Shown piece by piece: positions 51,087 to 54,309 of a stretch of 64,000 nucleotides of DNA. The translations under genes and the position numbers were made by a program. Origin of the DNA: an uncultured Saprospiraceae bacterium (GTDB lineage Bacteria; Bacteroidota; Bacteroidia; Chitinophagales; Saprospiraceae). The DNA lies in assembly GCA_937921825.1 (NCBI GenBank), contig CAKZVK010000034.1:1-64000 (forward strand). Direction: 5' to 3'. The notes under the pieces were generated by a model that saw only the letters and a list, made by a program, of their open reading frames with translations, ran no database searches and was not told the origin of the DNA. The stretch's first letter is position 1. Each line of letters begins with the position of its first letter.

Positions 51087-52280
51087 ATGTCCAATTTACG
51101 CCTACATATAAGATTTTCATTCTTGGTCTTAAGTGCTATCCTATACTCTTCAGCATATAGTTATAGCCAGGAAATACCTAAAGTATTTACACATACATCT
51201 CTGAGTAAGGCCATGAGAGACTCCAAATATGGAGGAAAACCTGTCTTCGCTTTTGTATTTGCAGAATGGTCTATTCCTTGCCAAAGGATGATGGACAGTA
51301 CGTTTATGGACAAGAAGGTAATACACGAATTACAGTCCGATTATGAATGTGTGGCCTTAGAGGCCAGAAGGAGAAAGAGATTTACAGAAGAATATGACAT
51401 TCACATCTTCCCCACTATGCTCGTAATGGATTGGACAGGTGAGGTTATTATCAGATTTAAAGGTTATAAAAGTCCTGAGGAATTCATAAAAACTATAGAT
51501 AAGACCAGATCTAGCAGCCGCTACCTAAAGCAGAGTATTGATAGTCTCATACAGGGTGCTAATGCTGATAATATTCTCACCATCGTAGATTCTGTAAAGT
51601 ACTTTAAAGATGACTACGCCGCTAAAAATCTGGTAAAGAAATACCTGGATCATAAAAGCACTGATTGGAGACATCCCAATAACATGTTTCTCATCAAAGA
51701 ATATTTTGCGATGGACAAAAAGTACCTGAAGTTCCTATCCAAGTACCATTTCAAGTTCTATGAACGGTTTGACAGCTTAGCCATCAAAGAAAATATCGCT
51801 TTTCATGTATTCATTAATAGCCTGAAAACAGACAGTCGGGGCAGAGCAAAATTTGAATATAAGCCAGTCAAGAAATGGTTCAGGAAACATAAAATGCATA
51901 ATGCAGATAAGCTAGAGAACTTCGTCAAAATCAAATATCTCTTATGGGGTCGTGGACCCTCGATAAGGTATTCTGTGAATTTGCTCAAAGACTACCCCGA
52001 AACGAATGATGAAAATGTATTGTATGCTTCTACTATCAGACTCCTTATCTCTAATAGCCGTAGAAGAATAGACTATGATGAACTGATCAGTTCCGTAAAA
52101 CAAAGCATCAAAGAGGATGGCACCTTCTGGAGATATGACTTACTCTCATTGCTCTATTACAAAATAGGCAATAAGTCCAAGTCTGATCAAGCCATCTCTA
52201 CTGCCAAAAACATTGCAGCAGTCACAAACAAGATGTACGACCCTACCCTGCCTTACATTATAGACGCCATAGAAAATTAA
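51087..52280 (+). CDS. Secreted thioredoxin-fold protein (397 aa)
   Basis: Signal peptide MSNLRLHIRFSFLVLSAILYSSAYSYSQ; 'GKPVFAFVFAEWSIPCQRMMDSTFMDKKVIHELQSDYECVALEARRRKRFTEEYDIHIFPTMLVMDWTGEVIIRFKGYKSPEEF' has a thioredoxin-like layout. Confidence 0.75.
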   Translation: MSNLRLHIRFSFLVLSAILYSSAYSYSQEIPKVFTHTSLSKAMRDSKYGGKPVFAFVFAEWSIPCQRMMDSTFMDKKVIHELQSDYECVALEARRRKRFTEEYDIHIFPTMLVMDWTGEVIIRFKGYKSPEEFIKTIDKTRSSSRYLKQSIDSLIQGANADNILTIVDSVKYFKDDYAAKNLVKKYLDHKSTDWRHPNNMFLIKEYFAMDKKYLKFLSKYHFKFYERFDSLAIKENIAFHVFINSLKTDSRGRAKFEYKPVKKWFRKHKMHNADKLENFVKIKYLLWGRGPSIRYSVNLLKDYPETNDENVLYASTIRLLISNSRRRIDYDELISSVKQSIKEDGTFWRYDLLSLLYYKIGNKSKSDQAISTAKNIAAVTNKMYDPTLPYIIDAIEN

Positions 52281-52335
52281 AGCTCATAAGGCTGTCTACC
52301 ATCACATTCAATATCTCACAAGAAGGCAAAAAAAA

Positions 52336-52360
52336 ATGTCTTGCCTGAGAGGCAAGACAT
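52336..52360 (-). terminator. Intrinsic terminator of ncRNA candidate A
   Basis: ATGTCTTGCC-TCTCA-GGCAAGACAT followed by TTTTTTTT on the minus strand; perfect 10-bp stem. Confidence 0.85.
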
Positions 52361-52363
52361 TAA

Positions 52364-52587
52364 ACTCAATCAATAAACCAATCTATAATATCCGGGGACG
52401 AGCCGGACAAGAAAAGTATTTTAAAAGCCTGATTCTACACGTTAGTAGAATAGAGGACTTTTATATAAAAAAGACGAAATCCATAATCATGTAGCCATTA
52501 CCGATATTCAATAAATAGCTATGGTTCCACTATCATAGATTCCCTACCGCAACAAAATCTGCATCCACACGTCAGGTCGGATTGAGT
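52364..52587 (-). ncRNA. Candidate structured noncoding RNA, copy A of a tandem paralogous pair
   Basis: 5' ACTCAATC (52587-52580) pairs with 3' GATTGAGT (52371-52364). Internal hairpins ATTCTAC-TAACGT-GTAGAAT and TCCGG-CTCGTCC-CCGGA. Followed by a terminator. Shares segments with copy B. No credible ORF. Confidence 0.7.
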
Positions 52588-52624
52588 ATTTCTTTTTAGG
52601 CTTTTGGGAATTAAAAGTATAAAA

Positions 52625-52647
52625 TGTCCCGCCGGAGAGGCGGGACA
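52625..52647 (-). terminator. Intrinsic terminator of ncRNA candidate B
   Basis: TGTCCCGCC-TCTCC-GGCGGGACA followed by TTTTATACTTTTA on the minus strand; the stem differs from copy A by two compensatory base pairs. Confidence 0.75.
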
Positions 52648-52648
52648 A

Positions 52649-52848
52649 ACTCAATCAATAAACCAATCTCTATAAACCCTAAAAGGGTTGTTTTTAGCGA
52701 TTTTTTTTATCCCAATTCTCACTTTTGAAAATGGAGGACATTTATAAAAAAAAAGACGAAATCCAAATCTAGTAACTTACTCTCTGAGCAAGCGGCTCTA
52801 CTATCATTGTATCACATCATCACGCATTCATGTCAAGGTCGATTAAGT
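52649..52848 (-). ncRNA. Candidate structured noncoding RNA, copy B of a tandem paralogous pair
   Basis: 5' ACTTAATC pairs with 3' GATTGAGT (one C-to-U change giving a G-U pair). Hairpin CTAAAA-ACAACCC-TTTTAG at the position of TCCGG/CCGGA in copy A. Shared 'GGATTTCGTCTTTTTT', 'GATTGGTTTATTGATTGAGTTT' and 'ATGATAGTRGARCC'. Confidence 0.7.
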
Positions 52849-52893
52849 ATATATTTCTGTTCAGATCTTTATCTGAAGCTCTTTAGTCAGTTA

Positions 52894-54309
52894 TTAATCC
52901 ACGTTACCGTGAAAAAAAGAATTATTCTTTTCGATGATCGGATTCTCTAGATCATCAAGATTGATGCTCAGCTTAGAATGTGCTTTGCTTTCCGCTTCTC
53001 TTCTATCATCTAAGGTTATCCTTTTCCTCTTGTATGCAGGCACTTCTTCCATCTCTCCTACATGTCTTGGGTCATCTATAGGTCTAGTTGGCTTTTGATA
53101 TTCTTTGGCAGCAGTTCTTACTGTTCTTCTTGTTTCAGACCTACTTTCTTGAGGATCAGTAGTTACTTTGACTGATCTTCTAATAAAAGGGTCAGAGGTA
53201 TTAGGAGCAGAACTAACAGATACGTTATCAAATTCTATTACGTTCTCATTAGAAGGCTCTTTTATATCATAGACCTCTTTGACACCTTGCGTTATATCTT
53301 TGATATCTACATCATTAATCCCTATCCTGGTTGGAGGTACTACTTCTTCTTTACGCTTATCAAAGCCTGTAGCAATTAGAGTTACACTTATTTTATCTCC
53401 TAGAGAGTCATCGCTGCAATTACCCCAGATCATATCTGTACCCATACCCGCTTCCTCTTGGATATACTCGGTAATGTCAGTAATCTCATCCATAGTGACC
53501 TCTTGATTCCCTGATGTAATATTCAGTAAAATATGCTGAGCACCTCTGATATCATTATCCTCTAACAATGGAGAATTGATGGCAGCCTCTATCGCTGCTA
53601 TAGCTCTATTCTCACCTTCAGCTTCAGCGTATCCCATGATAGATACTCCACTGTTTTTCATTACAGTATTGACATCTTTGAAGTCAACATTGATATATCC
53701 TGGCACTGTTATAATCTCTGCTATACCTCTTGCAGCAGTCGCTAGTATATCATCAGCTTTACTAAAAGCTTCTGAGATTTTTAGATTACCATATAGTTCT
53801 TTGACTCTATCATTAGAAATGATCAATAGAGAATCCACATTTTTCTTTAATTCTTCTATCCCTAACATCGCCTGATTTTTTCTTCTCAGACCTTCGAACT
53901 TGAAGGGTATAGTTACAATCGCTACAGTAAGAATATCCATCTCCTTGGCTGCCTTAGCAATTATAGGTGCTGCACCTGTACCGGTTCCTCCTCCCATGCC
54001 TGCTGTAATAAAAAGCATCTTAGTGTCATTTTCTAGAAACCGTCTCACCTCATCGATGGATTCTATACAAGATTGCTTTCCTACTTCTGGAATAGATCCT
54101 GCCCCCAAGCCTTCAGTATGGCTAGGACCTAATTGTACTTTATTGTTTACAGGACTGACATCTAGAGCTTGCTTGTCTGTATTGGAAACAGCAAAGTCTA
54201 CTCCGTGAATACCTTGGCGGTACATATATGCCACTGCGTTACTTCCACCTCCTCCTACACCAATTACTTTAATCATAGAGCTATTCATTTGTTCGAATAA
54301 ATTATTCAT
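52894..54309 (-). CDS. ftsZ: Cell division protein FtsZ
   Basis: 'IKVIGVGGGGSNAVAYMYRQGIHGVDFAVSNTDKQAL', 'MLFITAGMGGGTGTGAAPIIAKAAKE', 'NVDFKDVNTVMKNSGVSIMGYAEAEG'. Confidence 0.97.
   Translation of the reverse strand: MNNLFEQMNSSMIKVIGVGGGGSNAVAYMYRQGIHGVDFAVSNTDKQALDVSPVNNKVQLGPSHTEGLGAGSIPEVGKQSCIESIDEVRRFLENDTKMLFITAGMGGGTGTGAAPIIAKAAKEMDILTVAIVTIPFKFEGLRRKNQAMLGIEELKKNVDSLLIISNDRVKELYGNLKISEAFSKADDILATAARGIAEIITVPGYINVDFKDVNTVMKNSGVSIMGYAEAEGENRAIAAIEAAINSPLLEDNDIRGAQHILLNITSGNQEVTMDEITDITEYIQEEAGMGTDMIWGNCSDDSLGDKISVTLIATGFDKRKEEVVPPTRIGINDVDIKDITQGVKEVYDIKEPSNENVIEFDNVSVSSAPNTSDPFIRRSVKVTTDPQESRSETRRTVRTAAKEYQKPTRPIDDPRHVGEMEEVPAYKRKRITLDDRREAESKAHSKLSINLDDLENPIIEKNNSFFHGNVD

Follow-up and report, generated by a model that had tools for sequence, protein, structure and literature searches.

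What function could be served by two related copies of a non-coding sequence placed in tandem behind a cell-division gene? The question is raised by a 64,000-nt stretch of DNA from an uncultured Saprospiraceae bacterium (hereafter the window), in which ftsZ (52894..54309, minus strand) and a convergent thioredoxin-like gene (51087-52280, plus strand) border a gap. On the minus strand the gap holds, in order after the ftsZ stop codon, unit B and then unit A. The preliminary description had read them as a tandem pair of related minus-strand units about 285 bp apart in a gap without a credible ORF, and these points are borne out. When searched against its own genome, unit A recovers unit B as the only other significant match (E = 4e-8 and 1e-5), and the conserved 12-mer pairing motifs at 52668-52657 and 52383-52372 are exactly 285 bp apart. 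No convincing promoter was seen before either unit. The sole ORF listed in the gap, of 52 aa, is on the plus strand and extends across the terminator, and a small-ORF explanation was ruled out by the lack of any minus-strand ORF of at least 50 aa. The idea of a 5' leader or attenuator of the downstream gene was also dismissed, as the next gene differs in identity and strand among relatives and is convergent in the window.

The conserved 3' halves of the units lie at 52621..52767 (unit B) and 52333..52485 (unit A), both on the minus strand, and match the covariance model R1 with 120.9 and 120.3 bits, respectively; R1 was built from these units, and the score of unit B follows by construction. 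Each unit finishes with a GC-rich hairpin and a T-run in our reading of the sequence. The terminator hairpin, supported by sequence and covariation, is GTCCCGCC/GGCGGGAC followed by TTTT in unit B (52626..52646, minus strand) and GTCTTGCC/GGCAAGAC followed by a T-run in unit A (52338..52358, minus strand). Upstream within the conserved halves stands motif 1, GGATTTCGTC, at 52755..52764 in unit B (minus strand), where it precedes a T-run and shows no variation in 22 units, and at 52473..52482 in unit A (minus strand), where it was placed by comparison within the genus. The pairing motif GATTGGTTTATT, at 52657..52668 in unit B and 52372..52383 in unit A (both minus strand), is exactly complementary to the loop of a second RNA described below. 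It is a conserved unpaired segment beside the closing stem and constitutes the putative functional core. The 5' arms of that stem, ACTTAATC in unit B (52841..52848, minus strand) and ACTCAATC in unit A (52580..52587, minus strand), face the arm GATTGAGT at 52656-52649 and 52371-52364, respectively. The closing 8-mers, the terminator changes and the two hairpins with 7-nt loops are all as previously described. The pairing of ACTYAATC with GATTGAGT is likewise present; the compensatory evidence claimed for it did not hold up, for only the 5' arm varies and its change is wobble-compatible. The closing stem is therefore weaker evidence than had been claimed, since it belongs to the genus and its 3' arm does not vary.

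Covariation is much clearer in the other stems. In hairpin H1 and the terminator taken together, both sides change in 56 cells compared with 17 in shuffles, and the covariation score is 0.57 against 0.21 for shuffled alignments, a value reached by 0 of 500 shuffles. Genus loci usually carry two tandem units directly after ftsZ. None of the 13 genus loci read, which come from as many genomes and comprise 23 units, departs from the 20-mer GATTGGTTTATTGATTGAGT, and GGATTTCGTCTTTT is likewise unchanged; by alignment, the units are conserved far beyond chance. Homologues with covariation were found across Saprospiraceae genera, in line with the structured RNA first proposed. At E ≤ 0.1, R1 has matches in 47 of the 199 Saprospiraceae genomes, and ftsZ stands directly upstream in almost every locus read (the window FtsZ protein was used to find the gene elsewhere); weak matches in G091 and G188 are read as false. 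R2, a model built from compact forms, added members within Saprospiraceae, and a scan of 345 class-level genomes gave nothing convincing outside the family.

Most genera have the compact form, which measures about 85 nt, lies within the ftsZ 3'UTR and finishes with an intrinsic terminator placed right after the motif. In a different genus, for example, G030 has a single compact copy 9 nt past the ftsZ stop codon, in which GGATTTCGTCTTTTTATTATACGCTTATCTCATAATGAGATTGGTTTATTGATT is followed by the terminator. Motif 1 is separated from the ftsZ stop codon by 2–15 nt at roughly half of the loci and by 35–218 nt at the others. Across the family, the invariant parts are GGAUUUCGUCUUUUU and AGAUUGGUUUAUU, and the core of the element is a terminator preceded by two conserved motifs that are largely unpaired. 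The hairpins that separate these motifs are present in some versions only, covarying strongly wherever they occur, and the closing stem is absent from the compact versions. Because the core is compact and the intervening hairpins are variable, the window form of about 250 nt with its closing stem is an elaborated, duplicated version. The closed RNA of about 250 nt in the preliminary description is thus present in the window genus and is not the ancestral form. Ancestrally the element is the compact one of the ftsZ 3'UTR, to which the window genus has added the 200-nt body and the closing stem. The tandem pair holds for most genus members, not for all, and the copy number over all lineages ranges from 1 to 5, with lineages outside the genus having 1, 3 or 5 copies (three in G184 and G077; five in G106, over two contig ends).

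Pairing of the ftsZ motif in trans would call for a conserved complement elsewhere, and such a complement was searched for on that ground. The complement, AATAAACCAATC, is frequent in 14 genomes of the genus, mostly inside genes, and this excess was rejected as a signal, as it is mostly coding chance (e.g., KIGLL or DWFI codons). Outside coding sequence it recurs only beside pdxA, in the same gap in 9 of the 14 genomes. The pdxA loci of 24 further genomes were then taken by protein similarity alone, with the motif unused. Of these, 22 were found, and the motif stands beside pdxA again in most genera that keep the gap (among the genomes concerned are G030, G106, G116, G121, G145, G175, G184, and G207). 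Since the window-genus partner was found through the exact complement, only the other genera, reached through pdxA or the partner model, are an independent test of complementarity. One of the conserved unpaired segments noted at the outset therefore turns out to be exactly complementary to another conserved RNA, and the earlier suggestion of a trans-acting RNA, made from the units alone, gains support from this putative partner.

The partner RNA is about 95–140 nt long and usually antisense to the pdxA 3' end, with other locations in some genera; in the window genome it lies at G000:C121:10590-10711 (plus strand), opposite the pdxA 3' end. Its loop contains AAUAAACCAAUCU, which is perfectly complementary to the ftsZ motif. 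In the orientation antisense to pdxA, the order is a TATATTTG box, a 5' arm (e.g., GCCAAAGC), a loop with AATAAACCAATCT, the arm GCTTTGGC and a T-run. The -7 promoter element of Bacteroidota has the consensus TAnnTTTG, and we take the TATATTTG box, which precedes the partner RNA in many genomes, to be a match to it. The closing-stem arms change together across genera (GTCGAAG/CTTCGAC, GACCTGGGCTGTC/GACAGATAGCTTAGGTC, CCGGAGTCATCGG/CCGATGGCTTCGG, and CCAAGG/CCTTGG). This stem, which ends in a U-run, is paired in 95.9% of cells compared with 86% in shuffles, and its covariation score of 0.433 against 0.250 was reached by 0 of 500 shuffles. Some partner RNAs are shorter than 100 nt and have one stem and a large loop. 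With a promoter-like box, an intrinsic terminator and a conserved open pairing region, the partner has the features of a trans-encoded base-pairing sRNA. R3, the partner model, was built with the pairing motif included and has matches in 51 of 199 Saprospiraceae genomes. Near 13 of the 49 partner loci read (two of the 13 doubtful), no pdxA was detected. Its occurrence away from pdxA as well makes the partner an independent RNA gene, and the coding constraint of pdxA does not explain it. R3 also gives weak matches to a small number of ftsZ elements in reverse orientation (E ≥ 0.027), as complementarity predicts; the partner counts are not inflated by these matches, since the genomes concerned carry a separate true partner.

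Two further features of the partner were observed. Where it is antisense over the pdxA stop codon (e.g., L209 961-1082), its terminator is read from the C-terminal codons of pdxA; given this overlap, it could also affect the pdxA mRNA as a cis-antisense RNA in those genomes. In addition, most partner RNAs have another conserved stretch in the loop after the pairing motif, AUARGAAYC(U)AA (alignment A4), which may form weak pairs with GGAUUUCGUC in the ftsZ RNA.

Neither RNA corresponds to a known family, which agrees with the failure to place the units by eye. The search of the whole window against Rfam 15 at the gathering threshold returned one tRNA only, and at a relaxed threshold the lowest E-value in the gap was 0.16, with 18 bits compared with a gathering score of 42. 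Neither 6S RNA (RF00013) nor 6S-Flavo (RF01685) has a match in the window; RF00013 has none in 26 genomes, and RF01685 has none over the cut-off in the window genome and its relatives. The partner loci gave nothing relevant against Rfam, 6S included. Membership in 6S, 6S-Flavo or another Rfam family was accordingly dismissed for both RNAs. No description of either RNA was found in openly accessible papers, nor any literature on RNA control of ftsZ in Bacteroidota. With no Rfam 15 match and no paper found, both RNAs are undescribed.

Base pairing between the two RNAs is well supported on comparative grounds. The ftsZ 3'UTR-side sequence opposite the partner loop is GAUUGGUUUAUU, and its complementarity to the trans-encoded RNA is conserved: the longest uninterrupted antiparallel pairing around the motif has a median of 15 nt and reaches 20 nt (40 genomes). 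The two RNAs occur together in 36 genomes, from 45 and 51 among the 199, where about 12 are expected (Fisher p 2e-19, a statistic that ignores phylogeny). Cognate duplexes, with one genome for each of 25 genera, average -20.3 kcal/mol compared with -18.9 kcal/mol for permuted ones. The permutation p had a median of 0.0008 and a maximum of 0.0023 over 20 choices of representatives (0.00015 in the first run), with some relatedness between genera left in the result. Changes on the two sides also match. Duplex position 19 is G-C in 25 genomes and A-U in 5; ftsZ TTTATTG stands opposite partner CAATAAACC in most genera, and TTTATTA stands opposite TAATAAACC in g65 and g106. In G137, ftsZ TTTATG faces partner CATAAACC, a compensatory change from U-A to G-C. 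The partner motif is predicted to be unpaired at 0.73, compared with 0.40 for the whole RNA; the ftsZ-side motif is moderately open, at 0.56 and 0.37 in the window units and 0.43 in compact forms. A nested co-fold of a window unit with the partner gave no intermolecular pairs, by a method that cannot represent loop-loop pairing. Comparative analysis thus establishes, at the level of sequence, the two RNA elements with their terminators and covarying stems, their complementarity, their co-occurrence and their co-variation.

The complementarity is broken in some genomes, namely G007, where the partner loop is mutated, G213, with decay on both RNA sides, G088, G123, and G160. A second pairing site, between GGAUUUCGUC on the motif 1 side and partner RGAAYC, is significant in few genomes only, and AAAGACGAAATC, the complement of GGATTTCGTC, is no commoner in the genus than a reversed control, which gives no indication of motif 1 targets. 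Downstream of ftsZ in genus g66 (G079 and G179), the motif was seen as AAATTGGTTTATT in place of AGATTGGTTTATT, the AAATTGG variant; a partner with matching compensation was looked for there and none was found. G079 and G179 would be useful genomes for a direct test of compensation.

The reading that we favour, with a probability of roughly 60%, is a base-pairing RNA pair in which a trans-encoded sRNA would have the ftsZ 3'UTR as its target, with the additional copies behind ftsZ serving as decoys. Both RNAs would be transcribed, the partner, to judge from its anatomy, as a trans-encoded sRNA from its own promoter-like box to its own terminator. Its loop would bind the ftsZ mRNA 3'UTR between the stop codon and the terminator, where the single-stranded motif AGAUUGGUUUAUU(G) is predicted to pair with it over 13–20 nt, and binding would change the stability or output of the ftsZ mRNA. 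Pairing could expose the mRNA to double-strand-specific cleavage or shield its 3' end; the sequence is silent on which. Duplicated, separately terminated copies would titrate the sRNA as a sponge and so protect ftsZ expression. A circuit like that of SkatA and PrrF1 is favoured because extra terminated copies would add little to the ftsZ mRNA, yet could be effective decoys. The pair may also be dedicated, since the genus holds no other recurrent non-coding exact complement. A stronger version, which we put forward only tentatively, is that a dedicated, co-evolving RNA pair controls division: the sRNA would sense or set the growth state and act on the ftsZ 3'UTR, the tandem decoys would tune the threshold, and there would be few or no other targets, so that the pair would behave as the RNA equivalent of a dedicated regulator of FtsZ dosage together with its antagonist.

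The same pairing might operate in the reverse direction, with an ftsZ 3'UTR RNA, processed or made from the extra copies, inactivating the partner sRNA, whose real targets would be other mRNAs, so that ftsZ itself would be uncontrolled. We rank this reading second, behind the SkatA/PrrF1-like circuit, and regard it as rather unlikely. It is consistent with a copy number that varies mainly on the ftsZ side (1–5, each extra copy with its own terminator), with the lack of another recurrent non-coding complement of the partner 12-nt motif in the genus, and with the precedent of the 3'UTR-derived sponges SroC and SkatA (PMC9438474). However, many genera have a single element 2–15 nt past the ftsZ stop codon and before the terminator, which resembles an mRNA target site, and no other conserved target of the partner was identified. 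A cis-acting stability or termination element bound by a protein, with the complementary RNA either coincidental or part of the pathway of the same protein, appears improbable. Motif 1 (GGAUUUCGUCUUUU) is conserved like the pairing motif and has no convincing partner, and RRM proteins such as RbpB, which bind single-stranded RNA, occur in Bacteroidota (PMC11697453); yet coincidence is hard to reconcile with a perfect complement of 13–17 nt in the loop of a second RNA in more than 20 genera, together with covariation within genomes.

The remaining two readings, considered against the favoured sRNA–3'UTR circuit, are far less probable. That both sites are DNA sites of a DNA-binding protein, with no RNA-RNA interaction, is very improbable: GATTGGTTTATT is indeed a fixed 12-mer at two loci, but the ftsZ side always has the same orientation and precedes a terminator, the partner side sits in a loop closed by a covarying stem followed by a U-run, and the flanking covariation tracks antiparallel pairing. 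We give even less credence to a divergent 6S RNA in the place of the ftsZ units or the partner. The closing stem formed by the 5' and 3' ends of the partner recalls 6S RNA, and no Rfam 6S was detected in these genomes. Against this, neither RNA matches 6S or 6S-Flavo, the partner can be shorter than 100 nt, with just one stem closing a large loop, and most of the ftsZ element is single-stranded. The likeness to RF00013 and RF01685 is confined to the idea of both ends forming a closing stem; size and anatomy are different.

In kind, the system belongs with known pairs of an sRNA and a 3'UTR sponge; new are the link to ftsZ, the tandem arrays of putative decoys and the host group. SroC is a 3'UTR-derived sponge of GcvB, and SkatA, an RNA of the katA 3'UTR, protects katA from PrrF1 (PMC9438474). 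The ftsZ element resembles both in being an mRNA-derived sequence with an intrinsic terminator at its end and complementarity to a trans-encoded sRNA, and SkatA, as a 3'UTR RNA protecting its parent mRNA, is the closest functional model. In contrast to these two, the parent here is ftsZ, the host belongs to Bacteroidota, the repeats are tandem with a terminator for each copy, and the system is known from sequence alone. RNA control of ftsZ has precedent in enterobacteria. DicF of E. coli is an sRNA acting on ftsZ mRNA (PMC5069750), whose translation it blocks in an Hfq-dependent manner (PMC9438474), and an ftsZ-targeting sRNA is described in Klebsiella (PMC10907235). Like these, the Saprospiraceae partner is trans-encoded and has ftsZ mRNA as its proposed target; unlike with DicF, the complementary site lies in the ftsZ 3'UTR beside the terminator. 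UpsM, a dcw-cluster sRNA of Rhodobacter sphaeroides (PMC5089854), derives from the 5' leader of the cluster, whereas the Saprospiraceae element follows ftsZ. FopS of Bacteroides, which works with RbpB, comprises 14 paralogues and acts as a repressor of mRNAs for SusC-like transporters (PMC11697453). It is similarly a multicopy sRNA family in Bacteroidota, but, compared by description, differs from the tandem copies at ftsZ in another family.

Two RNA families without an Rfam match, joined by strong co-varying complementarity, provide a concrete and testable candidate RNA circuit around ftsZ. The comparison points to possible RNA-based control of cell division in Saprospiraceae, a group without a known case. 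Tandem amplification of a 3'UTR element with a terminator for each copy would offer a natural experiment on the dosage of decoys, and a complement-guided comparative search can recover an RNA together with its pairing partner even where metagenome assemblies are all that is known of the organisms.

Partner-like sequences were also noted in repeated units of some genomes. The idea that the 5' half of each ftsZ unit is a degenerate copy of the partner was considered: the resemblance is significant in both tandem copies of G184 (p 0.005 and 0.025) and marginal in G002 (p 0.035); beyond these two genomes, a partner-like 5' half was not clearly seen. In G184 (L072), each extra ftsZ-linked copy is preceded by a spacer with AACCAATCTGATAG, or a close variant of it, which matches the loop of that genome's own partner. 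Because these spacers match their own partner loop, the G184 units hold a partner-like 5' half together with the ftsZ motif. At another locus (L295, G185:C9:91800-93400), tandem repeats of about 160 bp stand between genes reading as murE and mraY, each copy bearing on the reverse strand AAACCAACCTGAGAATGATAATAGAACCTA, which resembles the partner RNA loop; in that genus, amplification may therefore have affected the partner module too, within the cluster of division genes.
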